Below are positions 7,640 to 47,794 of a stretch of DNA of 63,282 bases, one piece after another. The translations under genes were made by a program, and so were the position numbers. The notes under the pieces are model-generated. The model saw only the letters and a list, made by a program, of their open reading frames with translations, was not told the DNA's origin and made no database searches. The stretch covers positions 1 to 63,282 of the IMG/VR virus record IMGVR_UViG_3300043772_000427; one strand, written 5' to 3'. Every line of letters begins with the position of its first letter. The stretch's first letter is position 1. This stretch comes from a virus.

Positions 7640-7655
7640 TCGACCCCGCCAGAAC

Positions 7656-7685
7656 TTTACTTTTAACCATGGGATCAGCTATAAC
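7656..7685 (+). promoter_or_regulatory. Early promoter 1 (TTTACT-18-TATAAC)
   Basis: A -35 element TTTACT and -10 element TATAAC are separated by 18 bases. The same pair and spacing recur before the next two early units (8464-8493 and 9304-9333 with TGTACT), which supports a real host sigma-70-type promoter family. The -35 lies inside an AACTTTACTT block that recurs in both orientations in this region. Confidence 0.7.
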
Positions 7686-8381: not shown

Positions 8382-8463
8382 TTGATACCAGTTATTTGTC
8401 GTCGCGGGCGTTAAGCGTGCGCGAGTCAAGCGGATCACTTAGCGTTTCACACCCCGCTGAAAC
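8382..8463 (+). promoter_or_regulatory. Repeated leader block, copy 1, ending in CGTTTCA-N8-TGAAAC
   Basis: The block opens with TTGATACCAGTTATTTGTCG and, 61 bases later, carries the inverted repeat GTTTCA-N8-TGAAAC directly abutting the -35 of early promoter 2. Two more copies start at 9222 and 10017 with the same order and nearly the same spacing. The inverted repeat is placed as an activator or repressor site would be. Confidence 0.7.
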
Positions 8464-8493
8464 TTTACTTTAGACCCTAGGGTCAGCTATAAC
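8464..8493 (+). promoter_or_regulatory. Early promoter 2 with 12-base palindrome in the spacer
   Basis: TTTACT and TATAAC are spaced by 18 bases. The spacer contains the perfect palindrome GACCCTAGGGTC (8473-8484), an operator-like site that promoters 1 and 3 lack in exact form (promoter 1 has only CCATGG at that place). Confidence 0.7.
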
Positions 8494-8499
8494 TATTAC

Positions 8500-8527
8500 A
8501 TCAGATAGACAATTCGGTCTGTCTGAT
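8500..8527 (+). promoter_or_regulatory. Leader hairpin 2
   Basis: ATCAGATAGAC and GTCTGTCTGAT pair over 11 positions (one G-U) around a 6-base loop, just after the predicted start of transcription and about 30 bases before the start codon. The copy upstream of the paralogous gene differs in sequence but keeps the fold. Confidence 0.6.
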
Positions 8528-8555: not shown

Positions 8556-9164
8556 ATGTCTAAAGCAAAACAAGTGGCCCCTTCATTGGGTTCTGTCAAC
8601 GTCACTTCTATGAAGGACGCAGGTTATCAGTCAGCGATCAGCGATGAACGTAAAGACAGCGTAGCGCGCTATGTATATGCGCAATGTCCCAACTTCACCA
8701 ATGAAGTCAGCGATGAAGTTAAAACCCAACTTCGCGCAGGTTGGGCATTACGTTGGCAAGAGTTGAACCCAGCGAAAAGTTATAACGACAGTTGGATTCC
8801 CGTAGAGAATGGCTCTTATGTAATGACTGTTGATGTTTGCTTCAGTTACAGTCAGCAGGCCTTTGGTCAGTTGAAAGAGGCTGACCCAGTCAAGCATGGC
8901 ATTATCAAGGGTGTACGCGATGCCTTCAACAAATACTGTTTTAATCGCATGGCTGACCTAAAGTCAGCGGTACGCAAAGTAGAGAATGAGGGCAAGCCTA
9001 AAGTGAAAGCGCCTACTAAGGGTTTCACGCAATACATTGACGAGACATTCAAGTCAGTCAAGGCCAGAGCCAAGACAGCAAAAGCAAGGGGTGACGATTC
9101 AGCACCTGATGAAGTTAAATTGCGCATGGCCATCGATGCCTTCCACAATACTCTAAGCAAGTAA
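8556..9164 (+). CDS. Early protein, paralogue A of a tandem pair (202 aa)
   Basis: I do not recognise a named family. The protein is mixed-charge and Lys-rich toward the C-terminus, with conserved blocks shared with the gene at 9387-9980: DEVKTQLR.GWALRWQELNP (about residues 52-73), SYSQQAFGQLKEADP (about 97-111) and VENEGKPKVKAPTK (about 143-156). Overall I judge well over half of residues identical. It is a single-gene unit with its own promoter, leader hairpin, AGGAGATATTATG start and terminator, implying high early expression. A nucleic-acid-binding or regulatory role is plausible but unproven. Confidence 0.7.
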   Translation: MSKAKQVAPSLGSVNVTSMKDAGYQSAISDERKDSVARYVYAQCPNFTNEVSDEVKTQLRAGWALRWQELNPAKSYNDSWIPVENGSYVMTVDVCFSYSQQAFGQLKEADPVKHGIIKGVRDAFNKYCFNRMADLKSAVRKVENEGKPKVKAPTKGFTQYIDETFKSVKARAKTAKARGDDSAPDEVKLRMAIDAFHNTLSK

Positions 9165-9221: not shown

Positions 9222-9303
9222 TTGATACCAGTTATTTGTCGACGCGCGTGCTTCGTGCGTGTTTGCCAAGCGCATGGTTTACCGTTTCACGCCTCGCTGA
9301 AAC
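9222..9303 (+). promoter_or_regulatory. Repeated leader block, copy 2
   Basis: The block again starts TTGATACCAGTTATTTGTCG and reaches GTTTCA-N8-TGAAAC 61 bases on, abutting the -35 of early promoter 3. The inner 40 bases differ from copy 1 but stay GC-rich with short inverted repeats, so the ends rather than the middle are conserved. Confidence 0.7.
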
Positions 9304-9333
9304 TGTACTTATGTGTCTTGTATCGGGTATAAC
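9304..9333 (+). promoter_or_regulatory. Early promoter 3 (TGTACT-18-TATAAC)
   Basis: It has the same 18-base spacing and -10 hexamer as early promoters 1 and 2; the -35 differs by one base. It drives paralogue B. Confidence 0.65.
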
Positions 9334-9340
9334 TTAATCA

Positions 9341-9363
9341 CCAGATGACACGGTGTTGTCTGG
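9341..9363 (+). promoter_or_regulatory. Leader hairpin 3
   Basis: CCAGATGAC and GTTGTCTGG pair over 9 positions (two G-U or U-G pairs) around a 5-base loop, at the same place as leader hairpin 2. Confidence 0.55.
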
Positions 9364-9386: not shown

Positions 9387-9980
9387 ATGAGCAAAGCAAC
9401 AAAACCCCAAGAGACAATCGTCTCGTCGTTCAAAGATGCCGCATACCAATCGGCAAGGTCTAGTGAAACAATGGCAGTCATTGCCCGTTTTGTATACGAG
9501 CAGTGTCCTACATTCTGCGAATCACAACCAGATGAGGTCAAGACTCAACTGCGCCTCGGATGGGCTTTGAGATGGCAAGAGTTAAACCCTGCCACAGTAT
9601 TCGACAATGACTGGAAACCAAACCCCAAGGGAGGTTTTACCAATAGTCTGGATTACTGCTTGTCATACTCTCAACAAGCATTTGGGCAACTCAAAGAGGC
9701 CGATCCAATCAAGCATGGTGTCATCAAGGCCGTGCGTGATAACTTTAACAAGTATTGTTCCAATCGTCTTGCCGATCTCAAGGTTGCCGTGCGTAGAGTT
9801 GAGAATGAGGGCAAGCCCAAGGTCAAAGCCCCCACAAAACAATTTGATGATTTCATCAAAGAGTTGTTTACCACAGTCAAAGCCCGTGCCAAAACTGCCA
9901 ATGCACGAGGCGACACAACTGCACCCAATGAGGTTAAATTGCGCCAAGCAATCGATCTGTTTAACAATGCTTTGAAGTAA
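9387..9980 (+). CDS. Early protein, paralogue B of a tandem pair (197 aa)
   Basis: This is the second copy of the 8556-9164 gene, with the same domain order and almost identical central and basic blocks (QAFGQLKEADP, VENEGKPKVKAPTK, VKARAKTA.ARGD). The N-terminal 45 residues and the stretch after LNPA differ most, which may mean different partners. It starts at ATG after TTGGAGATACC. It has its own promoter and hairpin terminator. The conserved flanks show that the duplication included the regulatory leader. Confidence 0.7.
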   Translation: MSKATKPQETIVSSFKDAAYQSARSSETMAVIARFVYEQCPTFCESQPDEVKTQLRLGWALRWQELNPATVFDNDWKPNPKGGFTNSLDYCLSYSQQAFGQLKEADPIKHGVIKAVRDNFNKYCSNRLADLKVAVRRVENEGKPKVKAPTKQFDDFIKELFTTVKARAKTANARGDTTAPNEVKLRQAIDLFNNALK

Positions 9981-9987
9981 GCATCTG

Positions 9988-10018
9988 TGCACCGCCAGTT
10001 AACGCTGGCGGTGCATTT
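9988..10018 (+). terminator. Hairpin terminator after paralogue B
   Basis: TGCACCGCCAG and CTGGCGGTGCA form a perfect 11-base-pair stem around a 6-base loop, followed by only three Ts. It is a very stable hairpin, but the short T run makes it a weaker intrinsic terminator than the others here. Confidence 0.65.
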
Positions 10019-10102
10019 GATACCAGTTATGAGTCCTCGCGTGCGCTAAGTGCGTGCGTGTGAGCCAAGCCGATCAACTACCGTTTCAGGGGTGCGTGAA
10101 AT
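10017..10102 (+). promoter_or_regulatory. Repeated leader block, copy 3 (no promoter or gene after it)
   Basis: The block begins TTGATACCAGTTAT and carries CGTTTCA-N8-TGAAA 65 bases later, but no TTTACT/TATAAC promoter or reading frame follows. It looks like the terminal remnant of the cassette duplication, or a copy retained because the element also serves the adjacent origin-like region. Confidence 0.6.
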
Positions 10103-10146
10103 GGGTAAGCAAGTAACAGCCATTGATTATCTCAAGAGACATGTCC

Positions 10147-10155
10147 TGTGGATAA
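10147..10155 (-). other. Exact consensus DnaA box
   Basis: The plus strand reads TGTGGATAA, which is TTATCCACA on the minus strand, the strongest consensus binding site for host DnaA. A given 9-mer is expected on one or other strand about once per 130 kb of random sequence, and this one falls at the edge of the repeat array. Confidence 0.65.
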
Positions 10156-10164
10156 CTTTATTTG

Positions 10165-10680
10165 TTCCAAGATTCCAACTGGACTGGAACTTTGGAATCG
10201 CTAATTGGAATCTTGGAATCTGAGTAAAAACAAAATTCCAACTTGGAATTCCAGTATTTGCCTCTTATGTAAAGTTGTTCCAATTTGGAACACAAAATTG
10301 GAATCTTGTAAGTGCTTGATTTTAAACAAGAAAACACCACTTTTGACCTAAAAATTCCAAAATTCCAGTTTTTCAAAAGGACAAAGCTGGTTGGAGCAAT
10401 AATTTGGAAGAGCAAGACTGTGTCAGCAAGTGCGATGTCCCACAAAACAGCAAATTATGGTGTTTTTCTCATTTTGCCCGACGTCCCTGCAAATCGCTGG
10501 AATCTTGGAATTTTGGAATAAATATAATTTTTTTTTTTTTTTACTACTACTACTACTCTACTCTTTATATTCATTTCATAACCTTAGTAGTACTTTTCCA
10601 GATTCCAATTCACCCCAATTTGTTCCAAAAACCCGTTCCAATAACCCCCCAAAAAGTCTAACTGTACATATCCAATTCCA
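10165..10680. repeat. Dense array of TTCCA/TGGAA repeats on both strands
   Basis: I count about 23 TTCCA or TGGAA pentamers in roughly 515 bases, where one would be expected by chance. Many extend to TTGGAATC or its complement. Some form exact inverted pairs, such as TGGAATTCCA (10244-10253) and GTTCCA-ATT-TGGAAC (10277-10291). Spacing is irregular, so this is a protein-binding array rather than a simple tandem or CRISPR repeat. Confidence 0.85.
10528..10556 (+). other. T15 tract followed by (TAC)5
   Basis: Fifteen consecutive Ts run into five TAC triplets inside the candidate origin. The complementary strand carries TAG-phase triplets, which resemble bacterial DnaA-trio unwinding elements, although the DnaA box is about 390 bases away rather than adjacent. 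It may be the melting site, or simply a slippage-prone microsatellite. Confidence 0.4.
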
Positions 10681-10711
10681 ATCCCTGTACACTACGCCCC
10701 AAGCCCTGCAC

Positions 10712-10785
10712 CTCAACAAAGTCACCCCACACCCCTATGTTTATAAGTAAAGTTATGTTACAATTGAGTCTGAGTCGGGGAATAA
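10712..10785 (+). promoter_or_regulatory. Operon leader promoter region 4
   Basis: CTCAACAAAGT (10712-10722) is followed 21 bases from its start by CCTATGTTTATA, then AAGTAAAGTT, a -10-like TACAAT (10759-10764) and GTCGGGG. The same string of blocks with the same spacing recurs at 12450-12524. A good -35 is not evident at 17 bases, so it may be an activated promoter. Confidence 0.6.
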
Positions 10786-10840
10786 GCGCCTGCAAACCTC
10801 TCCAACTCAAGCCTTTGCCAACCCCAAGACGACCAACAAT

Positions 10841-10860
10841 CGTTTCACGGGTGGGTGAAA
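10841..10860 (+). promoter_or_regulatory. Inverted repeat CGTTTCA-N8-TGAAA, copy 4
   Basis: This has the same arms and exact 8-base spacing as the elements at 8443, 9283, 10082 and 12545. Here it lies downstream of the -10-like element and 41 bases before the start codon, so it would be within the mRNA leader. Confidence 0.65.
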
Positions 10861-10901
10861 TCAAGTTAGTTCAATTCAGTTCAATTTAGTTAGGAGTCAT
10901 C

Positions 10902-12449: not shown

Positions 12450-12524
12450 CTCAACAAAGTTGGGGTAAATCCCTATGTTTATATGTAAAGTTATGGTACA
12501 ATGGAATCTGTGTCGGGGAGTAAC
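12450..12524 (+). promoter_or_regulatory. Operon leader promoter region 5
   Basis: CTCAACAAAGT, CCCTATGTTTATA, ATGTAAAGTT, the -10-like TACAAT (12497-12502) and GTCGGGG occur in the same order and spacing as at 10712-10785. About 85 percent of positions match over the core. It drives the operon that includes the AAA+/vWA block. Confidence 0.6.
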
Positions 12525-12544
12525 TCGACACAGCCATCACTTAC

Positions 12545-12564
12545 CGTTTCACGGTACGGTGAAA
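12545..12564 (+). promoter_or_regulatory. Inverted repeat CGTTTCA-N8-TGAAA, copy 5
   Basis: Fifth copy of the element, again with an 8-base centre, 33 bases before the start codon and downstream of the -10-like sequence. Confidence 0.65.
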
Positions 12565-12596
12565 TTCAATTCAGTTTTATTTAGTCAGGAGATAGT

Positions 12597-14210: not shown

Positions 14211-15281
14211 ATGTCTAAAATCAATTTCAACCTGAACATTACCATCGATGACTGCGCAAACGTCATCAAGACAATCGGTAATTCAATTACTCCCATCATT
14301 GTCTCTGAGCCTGGTTGTGGCAAGTCATCAATCCTGAAGATGCTTGAGGCTGATCTCGGTACTGATGAGTATGACTTCATCTATGTCGACTGTCCTGTTA
14401 AAGACATGATGGACGTTGCGGCATCGATCCCCAACCATGCAAGCAAGACTCTTGAGTATTATGTGTCGTCTCTCTTCAAGCTAGGCAACGGCAAGAAGAA
14501 AGTCATCATGCTTGACGAGTTCATGAAGTCTCCCAAGCTATTGCAGATTATCTTCACCCGACTCATGCTCGAGCGTAGTGTTGGCGATGAACCCCTGCCC
14601 GAGGGTAGCATCGTGTTCGGTACAAGTAACAATGCAAGCGATGGTGTAGGCGACAGCATGTTGGCTCACGTTGGTAATCGTGTGTGTATCTTGCACATGA
14701 GCAAGCCCAATGCAGAGTTGTGGAATGTGTGGGCGACTAAGCACAAGGTTGCTAGACCGATTCGTGCATGGGTGGCGATGACTCCCAAGGCCATGCGTAG
14801 CTATCTGGACGGTGATGAGAGCGACAACCCATATATATTTAAACCATCATCTCCCGCACGTTCATTCGTGTCGCCTCGTTCATTGGCGAAAGCATCTCCC
14901 ATTGTGGAAGCTAAGGACATCATCGGTGAACACGCAATGATGGCGGCGTTGGCAGGCACTATCGGTGAAGCGGCGGCTAAGAGTATGTCAGCGTTCATTG
15001 CACTCGAAGGTAAGTTGATCTCATTCGCTGATGTGTTGAAAGCACCATCAACCATTAAAGTTCCTGACGATGTGTCAGCGCAAGTCATGATGATGTTCGA
15101 GGCGGTCGACGTAGTAGAGACTCAGGATGAGCTGAACAAGTACATGCAGTTCGTTGAGCGTATTCCGTCCTCTGAAGTTCAGTCTGTGTTCTTCACGATG
15201 ATTATGCGCGGTAAGCCTCGCATTGCGCGATACAACCAAGCGATCAACACTTGGGCATCAAACAACCACAAGTTGATGTGA
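14211..15281 (+). CDS. MoxR-type AAA+ ATPase (356 aa)
   Basis: An AAA+ ATPase with Walker A EPGCGKSS (residues 33-40), Walker B VIMLDEF (98-104, D102/E103) and a sensor-1-like FGTSNN stretch. The C-terminal part (about 200-356) is helical, as in MoxR/CbbQ lid and substrate regions. MoxR ATPases work with a vWA partner to remodel or activate protein complexes, and the vWA gene lies next but one. N4-like phages also carry an ATPase/vWA pair among their early or middle genes. Start: ATG after GAAGGAAACACC. Confidence 0.85.
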   Translation: MSKINFNLNITIDDCANVIKTIGNSITPIIVSEPGCGKSSILKMLEADLGTDEYDFIYVDCPVKDMMDVAASIPNHASKTLEYYVSSLFKLGNGKKKVIMLDEFMKSPKLLQIIFTRLMLERSVGDEPLPEGSIVFGTSNNASDGVGDSMLAHVGNRVCILHMSKPNAELWNVWATKHKVARPIRAWVAMTPKAMRSYLDGDESDNPYIFKPSSPARSFVSPRSLAKASPIVEAKDIIGEHAMMAALAGTIGEAAAKSMSAFIALEGKLISFADVLKAPSTIKVPDDVSAQVMMMFEAVDVVETQDELNKYMQFVERIPSSEVQSVFFTMIMRGKPRIARYNQAINTWASNNHKLM

Positions 15282-15289
15282 GGTAATCA

Positions 15290-15379
15290 ATGCTGACCCA
15301 ATGGGAAAAGTTTGAGCGAGTGGCGTTGCTGATGTCACTCATTGTTTTATTGTTAGACCTTTTTTACTGGAGACCATAA
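15290..15379 (+). CDS. Tiny hydrophobic protein between ATPase and vWA genes (29 aa)
   Basis: A 29-codon frame preceded by GAGGTAATCA and ending in TAATG, so its stop overlaps the vWA start. Residues 12-26 (VALLMSLIVLLLDLF) would form one membrane helix. It may be a real membrane micropeptide or only a coupling leader; evidence is limited to the ribosome-binding site and overlap. Confidence 0.4.
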   Translation: MLTQWEKFERVALLMSLIVLLLDLFYWRP

Positions 15380-16575
15380 TGTTGACTGAAGAAGAACGCG
15401 TCAAGAAGGCGCACATTGCCATGATGAAACATCCTGAGACAGCTTTGTATTCAGGTGTGATGATGATGGGTACGACAGCCGTGATCGATGATGCGATAAC
15501 TGCATACACCGATGGTATCAACAAGCGTTACGGCAGAGCGTTCCTCAAAGCCGTGTGCAAGACAGACCAAGAAGTAGCAGGCTTAGTGCTTCATGAGAAT
15601 CTGCACATCGTATTGCGTCACATGCTCCACGGCATTGACATGTTCAGAGAAGATCGTCAGCGAGCCAACAAAGCGGCAGACTATGTTGTCAACGACATCA
15701 TCATGAACATCAAGGACAAGAACCTTGTGAAGCTACCCGAAGGCGGATGCTATGACCCCAAGTACCACAACATGAACATGCGTGAGGTGTACAAGTTATT
15801 GGAGGAAGAGGAGTGTGGTGGCGGAGGAAGTGGTGATTCAGGGGATGGTGAATCGCAAGGTGGAGGTGGTGAGTATTCGTTCGATGAGCACGACACCGAG
15901 GGCGATGGTAATCCGATGACTCCTGAGAAAGCCAAGGAAGTCGAGGCGCGTATCGACAGAGCGTTGCGTGAAGGCGCGTTGTTAGCGGGTCGCTTAGGTA
16001 TTGATCTGCCACGAGCAATCACAGACATTCTCAACCCGAAGGTGGACTGGCGTGAGGTGTTACGAGATTTTGTTTCTTCAGCGACGAAGGGCAAGGACGA
16101 GTACACATGGCGCAAGTTCAACCGCAGAGTGTTGCCCAATGATTTGTACATCCCAACTGTGGAGAACGAGACTATCGGAGAGATTGTCGTTGCTATCGAT
16201 ACATCGGGTTCGATTGGCGAGAAGGAACTCAATGAGTTCGCCTCGGAACTGGTCTCTATCTGTGAGGTCGTATCGCCCGAAGCTGTGCGCGTTCTGTGGT
16301 GGGACACTAAGGTTCATGGCGAGCAACTGTTCAAAGATGATTATCAGAACATCGGAGCAATGCTCAAGCCCTTGGGCGGCGGAGGAACTAAGGTTTCATG
16401 CGTGGCTGAATACATCAACAAGAAGCGTGTCAACGCTGAATGTGTATTGGTGTTCACCGACGGTTATGTTGAGAACGATGTTGCGTGGCAGATTTCAGCA
16501 CCGACATTGTGGATGGTGACAGAGAACGAGAGTTGGCAACCGCCAACAGGTAAGAAAGTTATGGTGAAGGAGTAA
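15379..16575 (+). CDS. vWA-domain protein with N-terminal zincin-like metallopeptidase (398 aa)
   Basis: Two domains are visible. The N-terminal one (about 1-150) has HENLHIVLRH (72-81), a perfect HExxHxxxxH zinc-metalloprotease motif, as in the DUF2201 putative metallopeptidase family. A Gly/Ser/Glu-rich linker follows (about 146-180). The C-terminal VWA-like domain (about 265-398) has a complete MIDAS start, DTSGS (D274, S276, S278), and FTDGY later. Family knowledge links this architecture to MoxR ATPases. The pair could act as a chaperone-activated protease or complex remodeller directed at a host or phage target. The gene overlaps the previous stop. Confidence 0.85.
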   Translation: MLTEEERVKKAHIAMMKHPETALYSGVMMMGTTAVIDDAITAYTDGINKRYGRAFLKAVCKTDQEVAGLVLHENLHIVLRHMLHGIDMFREDRQRANKAADYVVNDIIMNIKDKNLVKLPEGGCYDPKYHNMNMREVYKLLEEEECGGGGSGDSGDGESQGGGGEYSFDEHDTEGDGNPMTPEKAKEVEARIDRALREGALLAGRLGIDLPRAITDILNPKVDWREVLRDFVSSATKGKDEYTWRKFNRRVLPNDLYIPTVENETIGEIVVAIDTSGSIGEKELNEFASELVSICEVVSPEAVRVLWWDTKVHGEQLFKDDYQNIGAMLKPLGGGGTKVSCVAEYINKKRVNAECVLVFTDGYVENDVAWQISAPTLWMVTENESWQPPTGKKVMVKE

Positions 16576-21546: not shown

Positions 21547-22029
21547 ATGATGCTTGAAGGAATCAAGATACTAGGGGAACGTATAGTCAACATGCCTGAA
21601 CTGTACGACCCGAATGAGAACAGAGTGACGGAAGTCAAAATGACTGATCCTGAAATTCCTCTTTCTCACCAAGTAGATCAGCTTATTCAGCTTGTTTGTG
21701 AGAACCGTGATGGAATCTTTACTGATGAGGAAATTAAACACATCAAAGACTCCATTACTGAGTGCAGGCGCAGAGTGTTTAACTCTTGGGTGGTGGGCAT
21801 CATCGCAGACCAAGACTTAATTCTGCCAAGAACTCGTGAGCAAATGAAAGCTGAGATAGAGCGCGAGGAAGAAGAACGCAAGTGGCGCATGGAGAAAGAG
21901 AAAGAAAAACGCCAAATGGAAAGAGAACGACAACTTGCTATGGAGCAAATACAACAACGTATGAAGCAAGATGAAATGCTACGTGGTGGCAGAGGTATCG
22001 CTAATAACAATTTAACAGGATTTATTTAA
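21547..22029 (+). CDS. Coiled-coil protein upstream of DNA polymerase (160 aa)
   Basis: The last 60 residues are an uninterrupted Arg/Glu/Lys/Met coiled coil. The N-terminal half has helices and an acidic patch. The ribosome-binding site is weak (GTGAG), so a downstream start at the ATG of MPELYD is possible. Its stop overlaps the polymerase start as TAATG, suggesting coupled synthesis and possibly a polymerase accessory role. Confidence 0.6.
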   Translation: MMLEGIKILGERIVNMPELYDPNENRVTEVKMTDPEIPLSHQVDQLIQLVCENRDGIFTDEEIKHIKDSITECRRRVFNSWVVGIIADQDLILPRTREQMKAEIEREEEERKWRMEKEKEKRQMERERQLAMEQIQQRMKQDEMLRGGRGIANNNLTGFI

Positions 22030-23897
22030 TGAGCCTTATAACCATCGACTTTGAGACCTACTACACCAACACTGGACTGGGTTTCTCCAAGCAAACAACA
22101 GAAGAGTACATCCGCGACCCGAAGTTTGAGGTCATAGGTGTTGCTGTTCAGATAGATGCTGGCGATCCAGTTTGGTATTCAGGCGACCGTGAAACGCTAC
22201 GCAAGTGGCTTGGGCAATTTGACTGGAAGAATAGCATGGTCATTGCTCACAACATGCTGTTTGACGGCGCGATTCTGAAGTGGCACTTTGGTATCACACC
22301 GATGGGGTATCTCGATACTCTGTCCATGGCGAGAGCCATTCATGGTGTTGAAGTCGGTGGTTCACTGGCCAAACTAGCGTTGCGCTACCAAATAGGAGAG
22401 AAAGGTACGGAAGTTAACGACGCAGTTAACAAACGCCGTGTCGACTTCACACCCGAGGACTTGGCGCAATATGGTCGTTATTGTGAGAATGATGTCAAGC
22501 TGACCTACGAGTTGTTTGTACGCATGGCGCAAGGCTTTCCGATGGAGGAGTTAAAGCTCATCGACATGACCTTGCGTATGTATATCCATCCGATGCTGTG
22601 TATCAATCAGGATACATTGAAGGAACGTCTCGACGGATTACAGAAAGAGAAATCAGAATTACTTTCTTCACTGATGGTAAAGCTCGAGTGTGAGACTGAG
22701 GAAGACGTTCGCAAGAATTTATCTAGCAACAGCAAGTTTGCAAAGATACTGCAAGACTTAGGCATTGAAGTGCCGATGAAGGTCAGCCCAACTACCGGCA
22801 AGCAGATGCCAGCACTCGCTAAGAAAGACGAAGGGTTCATTGCCCTGTCTGAGAGTGAAGATACTTTTATACAACACTTGTGCGCTGTGCGCCTTGGAAC
22901 GAAGTCAACGCTTGAAGAGAAACGCATCGAGCGTTTCATGAAGATTGGCGAACGCAATAAGGGAATGATTCCCATCCCCCTGAAATACTATGGGGCACAC
23001 ACCGGTAGATGGTCGGGTACTGACAAGATTAACTTTCAGAACTTACCGAGCCGTGACCCAAAGAAAAAGGCTTTGAAGAAAGCCATTGTGCCGCCCGAAG
23101 GCTATGTCGTAATCAACTGTGACTCATCGCAGATTGAAGCGCGGGTGCTACCTTGGCTTGCGGGTCAAGATGACATCGTTAAACTGTTTGCTGATGGAGA
23201 AGATGTTTACTCCGTCTTTGCGTCTGCTGTGTACGAGCGACCCATCACCAAGAAGAATCCTGTGGAACGGTTTGTGGGTAAGACCTGTATTCTGGGCCTT
23301 GGCTATGGCACTGGGGCTTTAAAGTTACAACACACACTAGCTACCACGCCTCCCGGTGTAAAGCTAACCGAGGACGAGTGCAAAGGACTCGTGACCAAGT
23401 ACCGTCAACTCAACGACAAGATCATTGATCTGTGGGCTGAGGGTGATCAGATGCTTGATGAGATGATGAACTCAAAGATCACCGAGCCACGAACATTCGG
23501 TAAACACAACTGCGTGTTCTACGACAACGAAGGGCTGATACTGCCTAACGGTTTTCGTATCCGATACCCCAACTTGCGCCGCGAGTACGAGGACGGCAAG
23601 TCCAAAGTAATGTACGATTCACGCAAGGGTAAGGTTTCTATTTGGGGCGGTGCGGTGGTTGAGAACGTGGTTCAAGCTCTAGCAAGGATCGTCGTGGGCA
23701 CTCAGATGGCTGAGATCAACGAGAAGTATCGCGTTGCGCTAACCGTGCATGACGCCGCTGTTAATGTTGTTCCAGCGGATGAGGCTGACGAGGCCGTGGC
23801 CTTCATAACTGGCATCATGTCTAAAGCCCCCGAGTGGGCAACCGGACTTCCTGTCGCGTGTGAGGCCGGCGTTGGTGAAACCTACGGAGACTGCTAA
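22029..23897 (+). CDS. Family-A DNA polymerase with 3'-5' exonuclease (622 aa)
   Basis: Replicative polymerase. The exonuclease domain has DFE (D7, E9), AHNMLFD (D79) and YCEND (Y151, D155). The polymerase domain has TGRWSG and NFQNLP, motif A DSSQIEAR (D365), motif B R414-xxx-K418-xxx-L422-xxx-Y426, and motif C VHDA (D575, A576). The residue equivalent to E. coli Phe762 is Leu422, and the Glu usually following the motif C Asp is Ala. There is no 5'-3' exonuclease domain, as usual for phage enzymes. Its stop overlaps the next start. Confidence 0.95.
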   Translation: MSLITIDFETYYTNTGLGFSKQTTEEYIRDPKFEVIGVAVQIDAGDPVWYSGDRETLRKWLGQFDWKNSMVIAHNMLFDGAILKWHFGITPMGYLDTLSMARAIHGVEVGGSLAKLALRYQIGEKGTEVNDAVNKRRVDFTPEDLAQYGRYCENDVKLTYELFVRMAQGFPMEELKLIDMTLRMYIHPMLCINQDTLKERLDGLQKEKSELLSSLMVKLECETEEDVRKNLSSNSKFAKILQDLGIEVPMKVSPTTGKQMPALAKKDEGFIALSESEDTFIQHLCAVRLGTKSTLEEKRIERFMKIGERNKGMIPIPLKYYGAHTGRWSGTDKINFQNLPSRDPKKKALKKAIVPPEGYVVINCDSSQIEARVLPWLAGQDDIVKLFADGEDVYSVFASAVYERPITKKNPVERFVGKTCILGLGYGTGALKLQHTLATTPPGVKLTEDECKGLVTKYRQLNDKIIDLWAEGDQMLDEMMNSKITEPRTFGKHNCVFYDNEGLILPNGFRIRYPNLRREYEDGKSKVMYDSRKGKVSIWGGAVVENVVQALARIVVGTQMAEINEKYRVALTVHDAAVNVVPADEADEAVAFITGIMSKAPEWATGLPVACEAGVGETYGDC

Positions 23898-25765: not shown

Positions 25766-25777
25766 TTGAAAGGCAGT

Positions 25778-27343
25778 ATGAATATAGTTGACGACACCGC
25801 ACTGCGGTTCCATTGCTCTCATGATGTGGCTAAGCAAATTACCACGTACATCGACAAGAGTGAATTAATTGGAGCCGAAGGTGGACACTCAGAGGTGCTG
25901 ATGTACTGGGGCATCAACGAGGTGCAAAAGCTCGTTCGCTTACTGCCTGACTCTAATAAGATTCCATCTCCCATTGAGCGTGACTATCAATGGCCCGGAA
26001 TGTTTACGCCATTCGATCACCAACGCGATACCGCACGGTTCTTGACACTACATCGCCGCGCTTTCTGTTTTAACGAAGCTGGTACAGGCAAGACTTCTGC
26101 CGCAATTTGGGCGGCTGATTATCTAATGAATCACGGGCTGGTGAAACGTGTGTTGGTTGTCTGCCCCTTGTCCATCATGCAGAGCGCATGGCAAGCTGAT
26201 TTGTTTAAAACTGTGATGCACCGCACATGTGGCGTAGCGCACGGATCAAAGCGCAAGAAAGTTATCAACGGTGGTTACGAGTTTGTAATCATCAATTACG
26301 ATGGTGTTAACGCAGAGCGCGAAACAATCATGGATGGTGGTTTTGATCTCATCATTGTTGACGAAGCTAATGCCTACAAGAACCCAAGCACCGTCCGTTG
26401 GAAAAATCTTGCCAAGATAATTCGTCCCGACACGTATTTGTGGATGATGACCGGCACTCCCGCTTCTCAGTCACCCGAGGATGCGTTTGGTCTAGCCAAG
26501 TTGGTCAACCCCAATAACATTCCTAAGTACAAGACTGCATGGAAAGATGCGGTCATGCAACAGATTACTCGCTTTAAGTGGATACCCAAGCCCCACGCCA
26601 AGGGTCTTGTATTCAACGCCTTACAACCCGCGATCCGGTACGAGAAAGCCCAGTGCCTTGATCTGCCTGACCTGATGTATCAGACACGCGAAGTGCCACT
26701 CAGTGCTCAAGCCACTAGCTACTACAAAGAGTTGCGCAAGGAAATGCAGATCGAAGCGGCTGGCGAAACAATCAGTACAGTTAATGCGGCGGCGGCTCTC
26801 ACGAAGCTCTTGCAGTTGTCAGGCGGCGCTGTGTACACCGATGACCACAACGTCATTGAGTTTGATGTTTCACCACGCTTGAACGTGCTTGGCGAAGTGA
26901 TTGATGAAGCATCGCACAAAGTCATCGTGTTCATTCCATACAAGCACACGATCAAAGTGGTTCAGGACTACCTGACAAAGAACAATATAACGACTGAGAT
27001 TATTTCAGGTGATGTGACTGCGTCTAACCGCGCCGCCATATTCAACAAGTTCCAAACAACCGACACACCACGGGTGTTGTTGATTCAACCACAAGCGGCA
27101 TCGCATGGCGTAACGCTGACTGCGGCAGACACGATTGTGTTTTGGTCGCCTGTGATGTCCGTAGAAACTTATCTGCAATGCGTTGCGCGTATCGACCGTG
27201 TTGGACAGAAAAACAAAATGACTGTGATTCACCTTCAAGGGTCTGAGGTGGAGAAGCGTATGTACACAATGCTACAAGGCAAAGTAGACATGCACACTCA
27301 GTTGGTAGACCTGTACAAAGAGGAAATAGGAGAGTCTGTATGA
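25778..27343 (+). CDS. SNF2-type DEAD/DEAH helicase (521 aa)
   Basis: Superfamily 2 helicase/translocase. Motif I is EAGTGKT, motif II is VDEAN, motif III is MTGTP, and the C-terminal half carries motif V-like SHGVTLT and motif VI QCVARIDRVGQ, the SNF2 hallmark. Phage members of this family act in replication or recombination as fork-remodelling or annealing helicases. The start is the ATG after GAAAGGCAGT; an upstream TTG four codons earlier would erase the ribosome-binding site. Confidence 0.9.
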   Translation: MNIVDDTALRFHCSHDVAKQITTYIDKSELIGAEGGHSEVLMYWGINEVQKLVRLLPDSNKIPSPIERDYQWPGMFTPFDHQRDTARFLTLHRRAFCFNEAGTGKTSAAIWAADYLMNHGLVKRVLVVCPLSIMQSAWQADLFKTVMHRTCGVAHGSKRKKVINGGYEFVIINYDGVNAERETIMDGGFDLIIVDEANAYKNPSTVRWKNLAKIIRPDTYLWMMTGTPASQSPEDAFGLAKLVNPNNIPKYKTAWKDAVMQQITRFKWIPKPHAKGLVFNALQPAIRYEKAQCLDLPDLMYQTREVPLSAQATSYYKELRKEMQIEAAGETISTVNAAAALTKLLQLSGGAVYTDDHNVIEFDVSPRLNVLGEVIDEASHKVIVFIPYKHTIKVVQDYLTKNNITTEIISGDVTASNRAAIFNKFQTTDTPRVLLIQPQAASHGVTLTAADTIVFWSPVMSVETYLQCVARIDRVGQKNKMTVIHLQGSEVEKRMYTMLQGKVDMHTQLVDLYKEEIGESV

Positions 27344-27776: not shown

Positions 27777-28640
27777 ATGAGTAACGAACTCGCAAACATT
27801 TTTCAAAACGCCGGTGGTTTAATGGAATTGGGCCTCGATGAGGACACACTTGCCGTAGCCGGTAATGCCACAAAAGGCAACAAGCGCATTTCTATCGAGG
27901 GTCGCGTATTCCGCAAGATCGTTGGTGGTAAAGAGCAGAGCGTCAATACAGACAACTCTATGAATGTCATCATCGTTAAGATGGCCCATGACGCATCGCG
28001 TACCTTCTATAACTCTACCTACAAAAAGGGTGTGAAGTTAGCCCCTGCTTGCTGGTCAAATGACTCGAAGACCCCTGACCCCGAGGTTAAATCTCCTTGT
28101 GCGCCGACTTGCGCTGAGTGCCCCAACTCAGTCAAGGGTTCAGGTCAAGGCGGTCAAGGCACTGCTTGCCGACTCTCATGGAGAGCCGCTGTTGTATTGC
28201 CTAACGATCCCGAGGGAGATGTGTATCAGTTGGTGTTGCCAGCTACTTCAGCGTTCGGCAAAGAAGAAGGCGGCAAGTGGCCCTTCCGTCCGTACATTCA
28301 GATGCTTGCTAACAACAATGTGTCTGCTGGTCGTGTCGTAACTAAGATGCAGTTTGACATTAACTTCCCAGTGCCACGCTTGTTGTTTTCTCCAACGTCT
28401 GCTGTACCTAATGAAATACGCGATGTAATCGTTCAGCAAGGCAAGACTCCAGCCGCAGAGAACGCAGTCAAGTTGTCTGTGTTTAAAACTGATGGTGTTG
28501 ATGAAGTTGAAGCCCCTGCTCAACCAGCCGCTTTTGCTGAGCCTGTTCCTGAGCCAGTGAAACGCGCGTCTGCTCCTAAAGCATCTACTGAAGCTCCAGA
28601 AGATGTTAGCGACATCGTTAAAAAGTGGTCTAAGAAATAA
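27777..28640 (+). CDS. Putative single-stranded DNA-binding protein (287 aa)
   Basis: The first 200 residues look beta-rich (OB-like), interrupted by a Cys cluster CAPTCAECP...ACR (about 108-132) that could bind zinc. The last 70 residues are an Ala/Pro/Glu linker and a short conserved end (EDVSDIVKKW). A tail after a low-complexity linker is typical of phage SSBs, although this one ends basic rather than acidic. Position between helicase and primase genes fits. TTAGGAAACATC precedes the ATG. Confidence 0.6.
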   Translation: MSNELANIFQNAGGLMELGLDEDTLAVAGNATKGNKRISIEGRVFRKIVGGKEQSVNTDNSMNVIIVKMAHDASRTFYNSTYKKGVKLAPACWSNDSKTPDPEVKSPCAPTCAECPNSVKGSGQGGQGTACRLSWRAAVVLPNDPEGDVYQLVLPATSAFGKEEGGKWPFRPYIQMLANNNVSAGRVVTKMQFDINFPVPRLLFSPTSAVPNEIRDVIVQQGKTPAAENAVKLSVFKTDGVDEVEAPAQPAAFAEPVPEPVKRASAPKASTEAPEDVSDIVKKWSKK

Positions 28641-28975
28641 TGGCCCGCACATACAGCCCCGAACTACTAAGCATTGTTGATACAACTGAAGGGGACAATG
28701 TAGGCATCACGCTGGCGAAGGCGTGTATTGAAGCCAACTTGCCTGCCGCATACGCATCAGCAATTCTCGGTGTATCACGTATGGGTATCCATGCGTGGTT
28801 TCGGGGCGGGTATGTACGTAGTGGTCGTCGTGAAAAAATCAGGTTGTTTCTGCAACTTCTAAAGGAGGATACCGAAGCGGGACTCTTGCCAGCCAAGAAT
28901 CTCAAAGAAGCCCGTACATACACTGAGAACATCCTCGGTCGCGCAGTTACGGAAGTTTCTAAAAAGTCGGGTTAA
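28640..28975 (+). CDS. Helix-turn-helix DNA-binding protein (111 aa)
   Basis: LPAAYASAILGVSRMGIHAWFRGGYV (about residues 35-60) is a good helix-turn-helix with a basic follow-on (RSGRREKIR). The remainder is helical. It is the last gene before a terminator, and its start overlaps the SSB stop. It could be a transcription regulator of the early-to-late switch or an origin-binding factor; both are inference. Confidence 0.7.
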   Translation: MARTYSPELLSIVDTTEGDNVGITLAKACIEANLPAAYASAILGVSRMGIHAWFRGGYVRSGRREKIRLFLQLLKEDTEAGLLPAKNLKEARTYTENILGRAVTEVSKKSG

Positions 28976-29030: not shown

Positions 29031-31895
29031 ATGAACGAACAATTTTTTGATAAGGTATTGCCAACGCAGGGCAACATTTGTGTAGTCGGAATCAAGGGTG
29101 ACTCAGTGCGCCCCAAATTCTCTGAGTACCTTAGTGAAGCGATTGACTTCATGAAGGACTTTGATGCTGGTGACTTCAACACATTTTTTGCGCTTGGGAC
29201 ATTTGAGGGGTATCAACGTAGGGCTAGTGCGTGTATTTTTATGCGCTCGTTCTTTGTTGACCTAGACTGCGGCCCTGATAAGCCGTATGCGGCGTGGGAA
29301 GACGGACTGATAGCATTGCACAAGTTTCTGTCCGATACTGAACTGCCGCAACCAATCATCGTAAACTCCGGTAACGGCATCCATGCTTACTGGCCTTTTA
29401 CTGCTGATGTACCTACGGACATTTGGAAACCGTACGCTGAAAAGTTTAAACAGTATTGTTTAGACAACGGCCTCATGATTGATGAGGTAGTTACGGCAGA
29501 TGCCGCAAGGATTCTTAGAGTCCCCGGCAGTCGCAATCTAAAACGCGCTCCGTTACCGGTTGAAGTCATACAGGACGGTGAGCCTACAGACTTTCAAGAC
29601 TGGGAAAGCCTGCTTGGTAAAGTTGAAAAAGCATTTGACTTGAGCCAAGTTGAAAAGGGTCTTGATGATGAGACTCAAGCGCTGTTCGACAAGATGAACG
29701 GCAATTATGAATACGTCTTCCAAAAGCTCGCGGAGGATAGCTTAGAAGGAGTAGGCTGTGGACAAATTAAATACATTCTCGAAAACGCGGCTAGTTGTCC
29801 AGAGCCGTTGTGGTACGCTGGACTATCTGTCGCCTCAAGGTGTGTTGATGGCGACACTGCCATACATCTCATGTCAGAAGACCACCCCGACTATTCGCGG
29901 GACGAAACTGAACGAAAAGCAGAGCAGTCAAGAAGTGAAGCGGCTTGGGCACACAGTTGCGACGCCTTTGAACGTGAGAACAGGGCTGGATGCGTTGGAT
30001 GCCCACACAAAGGAAAACTCGGAAAGTCAGGGCCTATTGCACTTGCCCGATCTATCAAACTCGCAGTTGAATATACCGAGTCCTCTGACGGAACTCCTGA
30101 CGATGAAGGAGGCGAAGCCGAAGATGAAGCGGAGCCAACTGGGGCCAAAAAGGATCCCAAGAACCTCTTAGTCTTTCCTGAGTTTCTTAAGCCATTCTTT
30201 CGCCCAATCAACGGCGGTGTGTACTTTCAACCAGCGCCACGAATAAACAAGGATGGCAAGAAAGTCCAAGACCCACCCGAGATGCTGACACCAAATGATG
30301 TGTATCCCATTCAGCGACTGTTCAGCCCCCACGATGGCGAGTGCTTAGTCATTCGCTTGCACTTACCACGAGATGCGTCTCGTGAATTTATGTTACCGCT
30401 GAAAGACATCGGCGCATTAGACAAACTCAAGGCAACCCTGCTATCTAACGGCGTTGCATTTGAACCCGCGCTCGCTCCCAAGTTTGCGAGCTATCTAATG
30501 AAGTGGACAAGTTATTTAATCAATACACAAAAGGCAGACATCATGCGAATCCAACAAGGCTGGACAGAAGATCACGAATCATTTGTTATCGGTACAAGCG
30601 AAGTATTTAAAGACGAGATCAGGCACTGCCCTCCGTCTCCCATGTCTAAGAACATTGTGCGCTATGTCAAGAAAAGCGGTACGTTTGAAGGCTGGCTTAC
30701 GGCGGCTCGTATGCTCAACGACCCGGGCTATGAGTTTCATGCGTTCACGCTACTGTGCGGATTTGCTACACCCTTGATGGAGTTCTCCAACGTCAACGGT
30801 ATTGTGCTTTCCTTGCATGGTGAGTCTGGCGTTGGTAAGACAGGCGCTTTGTATTCTGCAATGAGTATCTGGGGATCACCTGAAAGCTTGACTGTTAACG
30901 ATGCAACACCCAATGCGCTAACACAGCGCATGATTACCTCTAAGAATATTACGTTTGGTCTTGATGAGCAGACTAACTTGGACGGCAAAGTAGCATCTGA
31001 TGTGGTCTACAAAACTTCCGCTGGTCGCCCAAAGATTAGACTTCAGGCGTCATCCAACCAAGAACGTGAGTCAGAGTTCATCACCCGATTGATTGCGATT
31101 ATTACAACAAACAACTCACTGATCGATATTATTTCAACCTACAAGGCAAACACCAGCGCCGAAGAAATGCGTGTACTTGAGCCATACATGACTAGGCCAA
31201 ATGTTCAGGGGTATGAACTGACACTTGAGCGCGGCAAAGACATGTTTGATGCCTATCACTACCACTACGGCCATGCCGGTATACCCTATGTGCAAGAACT
31301 GTTGAAAGTTGGCAAGAAAGAGTTGACTCGTAGGATCCACATTGAGTACATGAATGTAGCGGACAAGTATTCAAAGAGTGGTGAGTATCGCTACATTGCC
31401 AGTTTGATTGCCAACGTCTACACCGCTGAGCGCATCCTGCGTGAACTGGGCTGGTTTGAGTTTGACATGGTTCGTATCATGAACGTAGTTGGCGGAGCGT
31501 TCAACGACATCATCAATGGTAAGCGCAAAGCTGACTCCAATACCCGCGAAGATGTTTTAGGTGACTTCATCAATAAGAACATTCAGAACATGCTGGTCGT
31601 GAACAACGGCAAGGTATCCACAGCACCTCGTGGCCCTCTGTACATCAGGGCTGAAGTTGAAGAAAGCACAATCTTTGTATCTACTTCTGCGCTCAAAGCG
31701 TATCTGCATGAGATCAAACTGGGTATCAAGGAGTTTGAGACTAAGCTAACAGATGCCGGTGTACTGAAAGGCAAGTTGCGCAAACAGATGGCGGCTGGAT
31801 GGTCTGACGCAGTTGGCAGTACAAACGTACAAGCCTATGCTTTTGAAACTGATCTGACTCACTTGATTAAAGATGAGCAAGAAACCACCGAGTGA
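29031..31895 (+). CDS. Primase-helicase fusion (AEP-like primase plus DUF927-like helicase, 954 aa)
   Basis: The N-terminal third looks like an archaeo-eukaryotic-type primase: FFVDLDCG (D77, D79), VNSGNGIHAYW (111-121, H118) and ARILRVPGSRNLK (159-171). A C-x11-C-x2-C cluster (CDAFERENRAGCVGC) in the 310-335 region may bind zinc. The C-terminal half has a P-loop GESGVGKT (597-604) and a downstream DEQTN Walker B-like segment, as in DUF927 helicases. One chain thus provides priming and unwinding, like T7 gp4 but built from different domains. No strong ribosome-binding site is seen. Confidence 0.85.
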   Translation: MNEQFFDKVLPTQGNICVVGIKGDSVRPKFSEYLSEAIDFMKDFDAGDFNTFFALGTFEGYQRRASACIFMRSFFVDLDCGPDKPYAAWEDGLIALHKFLSDTELPQPIIVNSGNGIHAYWPFTADVPTDIWKPYAEKFKQYCLDNGLMIDEVVTADAARILRVPGSRNLKRAPLPVEVIQDGEPTDFQDWESLLGKVEKAFDLSQVEKGLDDETQALFDKMNGNYEYVFQKLAEDSLEGVGCGQIKYILENAASCPEPLWYAGLSVASRCVDGDTAIHLMSEDHPDYSRDETERKAEQSRSEAAWAHSCDAFERENRAGCVGCPHKGKLGKSGPIALARSIKLAVEYTESSDGTPDDEGGEAEDEAEPTGAKKDPKNLLVFPEFLKPFFRPINGGVYFQPAPRINKDGKKVQDPPEMLTPNDVYPIQRLFSPHDGECLVIRLHLPRDASREFMLPLKDIGALDKLKATLLSNGVAFEPALAPKFASYLMKWTSYLINTQKADIMRIQQGWTEDHESFVIGTSEVFKDEIRHCPPSPMSKNIVRYVKKSGTFEGWLTAARMLNDPGYEFHAFTLLCGFATPLMEFSNVNGIVLSLHGESGVGKTGALYSAMSIWGSPESLTVNDATPNALTQRMITSKNITFGLDEQTNLDGKVASDVVYKTSAGRPKIRLQASSNQERESEFITRLIAIITTNNSLIDIISTYKANTSAEEMRVLEPYMTRPNVQGYELTLERGKDMFDAYHYHYGHAGIPYVQELLKVGKKELTRRIHIEYMNVADKYSKSGEYRYIASLIANVYTAERILRELGWFEFDMVRIMNVVGGAFNDIINGKRKADSNTREDVLGDFINKNIQNMLVVNNGKVSTAPRGPLYIRAEVEESTIFVSTSALKAYLHEIKLGIKEFETKLTDAGVLKGKLRKQMAAGWSDAVGSTNVQAYAFETDLTHLIKDEQETTE

Positions 31896-47648: not shown

Positions 47649-47794
47649 AGACCAACCATTCCAAGTACTTTATTCACAATTTTGTCCGAAATAAAGTTCG
47701 GCAATATCTTGATGAAGTCTAAAAACAGATTTGCACCCCACCAAGCACCAATAATCTTGAAGCTCATGTCAGCGGCTTTTTGGTACTCGTTCAC
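47645..47794 (-). CDS. Small protein of the lysis group, GTG start (49 aa)
   Basis: A 49-codon frame that begins with GTG overlapping the previous stop (GTGA) and ends overlapping the next start (ATGA). The product has a hydrophobic, aromatic middle (FKIIGAWWGANLFLDFIKILP) and a Val/Leu-rich end, so it is likely membrane-associated. Possible antiholin or holin partner; inferred from position. Confidence 0.55.
   Translation of the reverse strand: MNEYQKAADMSFKIIGAWWGANLFLDFIKILPNFISDKIVNKVLGMVGL

Follow-up and report, generated by a model that had tools for sequence, protein, structure and literature searches.

A candidate phage replication origin with a dispersed array of TGGAA sites and its proposed primase-helicase initiator

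We infer, with a probability that we put at about 0.85, that the 921-bp intergenic region at 9981-10901 of the window (the whole 63,282-bp virus record analyzed here, G000) is a phage replication origin. This reading is strongly supported by comparison with related genomes, because these carry in the same place an array of short sites with the same or a drifted word, the least stable DNA and an IHF site, and because the same genomes encode an initiator-type helicase. We consider it likely that the region is a theta-type origin with the phage primase-helicase as its initiator, and the same protein appears to be the best candidate for the reader of the sites, at somewhat better than even odds. 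Origins are mostly unknown for phages seen only in metagenomes, and we found no described origin for this phage group in the literature; the signature described here, an array of a short word over a stability minimum together with an IHF consensus, points to one candidate origin per genome.

The record has a 127-bp terminal repeat, which is consistent with a complete circular assembly. Structural genes are on the minus strand, and early and replication genes are on the plus strand at ~8.5-32 kb, among them the genes for a family A DNA polymerase (PolA; 22029-23897) of the replication module and an SNF2-type helicase (25766-27343). Judged by the polymerase (~32-35%), the closest cultured relatives are Rhizobium phage RHph_TM3_14A, Pseudomonas phages KPP25 and phiR18, and Rollin; a DNA-level search of cultured phages with the array region gave no match. 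The replication region also contains an ATPase gene (14211-15281) followed by a gene for a VWA/DUF2201 metallopeptidase-like protein (15379-16575), a pair of the MoxR-VWA type that is also found in RHph_TM3_14A. The cumulative GC skew has its minimum at ~7.1 kb and a low plateau to ~13 kb; because this minimum coincides with the divergence of transcription, GC skew is confounded by transcription direction and was rejected as a test of the origin.

The array, the proposed unwinding element and the IHF consensus site

Exactly 23 TTCCA/TGGAA sites are found on both strands at 10165-10680, in agreement with the count of about 23 given in an earlier note on this DNA. From base composition, 2.0 sites would be expected in the 921-bp gap, and a first-order Markov simulation that kept the gap's own dinucleotides gave a mean of 3.5 and a maximum of 12 sites in 20,000 runs. 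Elsewhere, no 556-bp stretch of the genome holds more than 6 sites, and a second, crr-like cluster was not found. The earlier note had described the sites as irregular and without fixed spacing; however, a gap of exactly 8 bp separates neighbors in 8 of 22 cases, compared with 0.7 on average and never more than 5 in 20,000 random trials. These gaps include both direct TGGAAnnnTGGAA and inverted TTCCAnnnTGGAA pairs, and the layout is common to relatives. Of the consensus that it proposed, the core TGGAA is the conserved part, whereas the array has only six copies of the 8-mer TTGGAATC.

The sites fall into groups. The left cluster (10165-10303) has 12 sites, including the inverted pair GTTCCAATTTGGAAC, and contains two 14-bp inverted repeats (10165-10178 and 10205-10218). 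It is followed by an exact IHF consensus site inside the array, AATCAAGCACTTA (WATCARNNNNTTR; 10309-10321, minus strand), by the site pair TTCCAAAATTCCA (10355-10367, minus strand), which is kept in nearly all relatives, and by a single, lineage-specific TGGAA site (10405-10409, plus strand). Farther on, the tandem triplet TGGAATCTTGGAATTTTGGAA (10498-10518, plus strand) abuts an A+T-rich stretch, and the right cluster comprises five TTCCA sites (10596-10680, minus strand). The interval that separates the IHF site from the tandem triplet also contains a GCAAGTGCGA element (10426-10435, plus strand), which in the form GCAAGTGC(A/G)A is conserved in several lineages.

In a calculation with nearest-neighbor energies, the stability minima of the window for lengths of 60, 100 and 200 bp overlap one another and all fall within 10491-10690. 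The least stable 100 bp of the genome (10510-10609), which we propose as the DNA-unwinding element, include the T15-(TAC)5 tract pointed out earlier (10528-10556), with T15 at 10528-10542 and (TAC)5 at 10542-10556; the latter is the sole trinucleotide repeat of at least four units in the window. In five relatives, and also in KPP25, RHph_TM3_14A, Rollin and one further genome, G052, the array region likewise holds the least stable 100 bp. Two other genomes, G049 and G053 (35-36% GC), count against the main reading in this respect, as their arrays are among the least stable 1-1.5% and are not the genome minimum.

Both this stability minimum and the IHF consensus had escaped the earlier note. 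Among the 10 matches to the IHF consensus in the genome, the one at 10309-10321 has the most A+T-rich flank, and this element is kept with zero or one mismatch in nearly all lineages examined, in the opposite orientation in two of them (L037 and L065). Rollin has two exact matches in 61 kb, one of them in the array region; RHph_TM3_14A has three in its genome, two of them in array regions; and KPP25 has a one-mismatch site in its array region. The predicted IHF site lies between sites of the array and the proposed unwinding element, as in an IHF-assisted origin.

The earlier note had also called attention to an exact DnaA box, and TTATCCACA is indeed present at 10147-10155 on the minus strand. 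Together with the (TAC)5 tract, which reads as TAG repeats on the minus strand, it raises the alternative of an oriC-like origin opened by host DnaA. The DnaA-trio has been described as 3'-GAT-5' or 3'-(G/A)AT-5' repeats adjacent to a DnaA box (PMC10797057), a motif that the (TAG)n tract fits; trio-like tracts are on the same strand in several lineages, and exact boxes recur in about half of the relatives, at differing positions. However, exact boxes are absent from L004, L007, L039 and L025-L034 despite full arrays, and trio-like tracts are absent, two-unit runs aside, from L025-L034, L037 and L135-L146. In the window the exact box is ~390 bp from the (TAG)n tract, which no box adjoins; one other exact match, TTATNCACA, is at 47670, and one-mismatch boxes are no commoner than chance. 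We therefore rejected the box as the conserved core and the trio as a general feature, and we regard an origin opened in this way as very improbable. The box is best seen as accessory. The proposal of a replication origin in the earlier note is strongly supported by the comparison of relatives, and the DnaA box on which it partly drew is not the conserved part.

Conservation of the gap and drift of the word

Searching twice with the genes that flank the gap, we obtained 42 loci. The 23 loci with both ends of the gap covered have kept its length (796-922 bp) and content, with 17-24 sites each, and three partly bounded loci have 18-19. The earlier note had named absence of the array from close relatives as evidence that would speak against an origin; the array is present in every relative with the gap covered. 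Order and spacing of the sites follow a plan common to the lineages. The left cluster is followed by 56 or 68 bp that include the IHF site; next come the pair TTCCAAAATTCCA and an interval of greater length, and then the tandem triplet, the A+T-rich interval and the right cluster. We aligned 13 diverse relatives, in 12 of which, the distant ones, only 0.36-0.45 of non-site bases are identical to the window; yet these retain 16-22 sites, compared with ~0.2 expected by inheritance if sites decayed like non-site DNA, which indicates that selection acts on the sites of the array.

Within the plan, the interval after the IHF site (10309-10354 in the window) occurs in relatives as alternative 56- and 68-bp cassettes, the longer of which contain DnaA-box-like TGTGGATA repeats; both forms were found in two lineages, suggesting cassette exchange. 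In two loci, L008 and L009, the 26 bp between the two 14-bp inverted repeats (10165-10218 in the window) are inverted with respect to the window, with a score of 24 of 26 in the inverted orientation and 11 in the forward one, and this difference is evidently a natural inversion inside the array.

A wider scan with an alignment of the up-family, the proteins encoded beside the array, gave 61 loci. Relatives at least 45% identical in this protein have kept TGGAA. In most of those below this level the array has kept its place and the word has changed to the TAGAACA or GGAACA type; in L040-L042 the up-family proteins are only 28-30% identical to those of the window, yet the word is TGGAA. In the three distant isolates, a large gap close to where the early genes begin carries different words: TGTTACGA in KPP25 (26.2-26.9 kb), a TCATAA-type word in RHph_TM3_14A (19.4-20.1 kb) and GCTTA/GCTAA in Rollin (0.6-1.45 kb, a part of the record that includes a run of N). 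Rollin (L043) also has AAAGGTAG repeats at 1-250, near its proposed origin; these form both direct and inverted pairs. The partial records G051, G043, G059, G064, G060 and G061 yielded no arrays.

The window has two adjacent up-family paralogues beside the proposed origin (8556-9164 and 9387-9980, both on the plus strand), which are ~64% identical and have no Pfam or PHROG match; in other lineages a single copy nearly always adjoins the array. An AlphaFold model of the second protein (9387-9980) was mostly confident and helical, and a fold search with it gave no match at E < 0.001.

In the early region, a promoter/leader-like module that contains a short inverted repeat, TTTCA...TGAAA, is present repeatedly (7643-7685, 8382-8506, 9222-9346, 10017-10102, 10712-10785, 10832-10861 and 12450-12565). 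As one copy is just 3' of the array (10712-10785, plus strand) and the array precedes an early gene, the sites might be read as an operator region for a transcription regulator of early genes, with no origin involved. We find this quite improbable. The same modules are present in several copies at ~7.6-12.5 kb without arrays (the copy 3' of the array is repeated at 12450-12523), and ~20 sites on both strands, spread over 500 bp around the least stable DNA, together with an IHF site, are far more than an operator needs; the word, moreover, covaries with the helicase, as described below, and not with a recognized regulator.

Arrays of short sites also act as centromeres and packaging sites, and the terminase genes are ~3 kb from the array. 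Nevertheless, a packaging (pac/cos) or partition site is the least probable explanation that we considered: no ParA/ParB or integrase was found among the proteins scanned, and an origin accounts better for the stability minimum, the IHF consensus and the way in which the word covaries with a replicative helicase.

The primase-helicase as the candidate reader

The proposed initiator is a primase-helicase (29031-31895, plus strand) with AEP-type primase motifs, a DUF927 AAA+ helicase and a C-terminal winged-helix-like domain. The primase motifs were found by eye, and in a profile comparison the protein matched a PrimPol structure weakly (E 0.022). The helicase matches Pfam DUF927 at 1.4e-24, a SaPI-type pathogenicity-island protein (8tch) at 1.3e-16 and an active helicase (5dgk) at 1.6e-16, by which we identify it as a DUF927 helicase homologous to SaPI Rep and SCCmec Cch. 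The 5dgk alignment extends to residue 911; this alignment and a low-confidence secondary-structure pattern are the basis for the putative winged helix, and the AlphaFold model of the primase-helicase was unusable (mean pLDDT 35). Helicases of this kind bind short-iteron origins via their C-terminal domain (PMC7581432).

The gene is present in all longer relative records searched, and the short records without it are fragments. When the helicase from a TAGAACA phage was used as the query, 66 loci were obtained, and array words were read where the record covered the gap. In the loop at 914-924 of the C-terminal domain (about aa 840-954; the loop is GKLRKQMAAGW in the window), residues 917 and 919 are R and Q in six TGGAA genomes and K and R in twelve TAGAACA genomes (loop DDKKGRLTTGW). 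Other combinations go with other words: G032 (K/Q) has an array that mixes 17 TGGAA with 7 TAGAA sites (TAGAATT), G045 (R/R) has TGGAACA and G047 (R/H) has TGGAA. A tree of the rest of the helicase places G047 with G045 inside the lineages with ...ACA words (support 92/90, not the strongest class), and given this nesting G047 seems to have lost the Arg and the CA extension alike in an event of its own.

The loop was then used to predict the word in genomes with arrays still unread. The prediction held for G052 (K/R), in which the array word is AGAACA. In G049 and G053, which are also K/R and have an additional Arg at 918, the word is TGGAACA; here the CA part of the prediction was right and the A part was wrong. 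Thus far, residue 919 tracks the CA extension without exception, and residue 917 tracks the second base of the word with one exception, the K with TGGAACA of G049 and G053, which breaks a simple one-residue rule at 917 and counts against the initiator reading. The covariation is suggestive and not proof, because independent events are few (two for 919, two or three for 917).

A serious if unlikely alternative is that the region is an origin whose word is read by another protein, which recruits the helicase in the manner of a lambda O-type initiator. One candidate is a small conserved protein with an HTH-like segment (28640-28975, plus strand), encoded directly upstream of the helicase in 8 of 8 relatives with the helicase; the other is the up-family protein, whose gene adjoins the array in nearly all lineages, as initiator genes often adjoin origins. 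KPP25 also argues for a separate reader and against the primase-helicase, as it has an array and no detected DUF927 protein, its large helicase candidate being a DUF5906 protein. However, the HTH-like protein does not change with the word: 18 of its 20 residues invariant in TGGAA genomes are kept when the word is TAGAACA, compared with 5 of 14 in helicase segment 911-940 (nominal p=0.013, with nine segments tested). The up-family model has no structural match, and the word of L040-L042 has stayed TGGAA despite the divergence of their up-family proteins.

Proposed mechanism and comparison with known origins

With the primase-helicase as the reader, the C-terminal domains of this self-loading DUF927 protein would bind TGGAA sites to the left and right of the A+T-rich element at 10510-10609, often at neighboring sites with the 8-bp spacing. 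Host IHF would bend the DNA at 10309-10321 and bring the clusters together, and host DnaA may assist where a box is present. The resulting strain would melt the A+T-rich element, allowing two helicase rings to load on the strands; priming would be carried out by the same primase-helicase and extension by the phage PolA. One further possibility, which seems to us an even call, is that the origins of these phages form a family with a word that has changed more than twice at all of its ~10-20 dispersed sites together. Each such change would have been matched by changes at a few residues of the initiator loop, with the IHF site, unwinding element and position staying fixed. The rewritten words would be TGGAA, TAGAACA, TGGAACA and the mixed TGGAA/TAGAATT of G032, and possibly the unrelated words of KPP25, Rollin and RHph_TM3_14A. 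Coevolution of initiator and origin requires concerted change at many sites and is for this reason usually difficult to study; the natural matched variants of word and loop make it directly testable with natural proteins and DNA.

A close parallel is with the SaPI Rep and SCCmec Cch and Cch2 systems, in which a DUF927 helicase (Cch, SaPIbov1 Rep; homology at E ~1e-16) is the initiator and the origin has multiple short iterons, like the 23 pentamer sites here. The Cch2 origin has 5-nt AAGTG iterons bound by the C-terminal domain of the helicase (PMC7581432). In contrast to these systems, ~20 sites here are on both strands around an A+T-rich core and an IHF site, the primase is fused to the helicase, and the genome is that of a complete phage whose cultured relatives infect Proteobacteria. 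Furthermore, SaPI and SCCmec origins are directly 3' of the helicase gene, whereas the array here (10.2-10.7 kb) is 18 kb from the helicase gene (29.0-31.9 kb), a separation that speaks against the initiator reading. The origin may work like the SaPI/SCCmec type, by predicted binding of the helicase to the sites; we do not file it as a member because it is not beside the helicase gene.

The P4 alpha protein is a fused primase-helicase that recognizes short iterons in both orientations, at ori and crr. The present system resembles it in the fused enzyme and in short iterons in both orientations; however, the helicase family and the word differ, and P4 needs a second cis element, crr, none of which was identified in this genome. 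PMC7145576 likewise refers to P4 as having a fused primase-helicase initiator.

Origins of iteron plasmids and oriC of E. coli combine repeats, an A+T-rich unwinding element, an IHF site and sometimes DnaA boxes (PMC10797057). The window shares with them (RK2, R6K and pSC101 among the plasmids) the repeats, the IHF site and an A+T-rich element next to the sites. In iteron plasmids, however, direct repeats of ~17-22 bp are arranged at helical spacing, whereas the sites here are 5-7 bp long, on both strands and preferentially 8 bp apart, and no Rep-family (Rep_3-type) initiator was found by Pfam or PHROG among the early proteins scanned, some small ORFs being outside the scan.

The SV40 origin has four GAGGC pentamers in direct and inverted pairs beside A+T-rich DNA, and its reader is the self-loading large T antigen. 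Pentamer pairs beside A+T-rich DNA and, as proposed here, a self-loading helicase as their reader are common to both, whereas the DNA-binding domain of large T antigen is unrelated and its four GAGGC sites compare with ~20 sites here.
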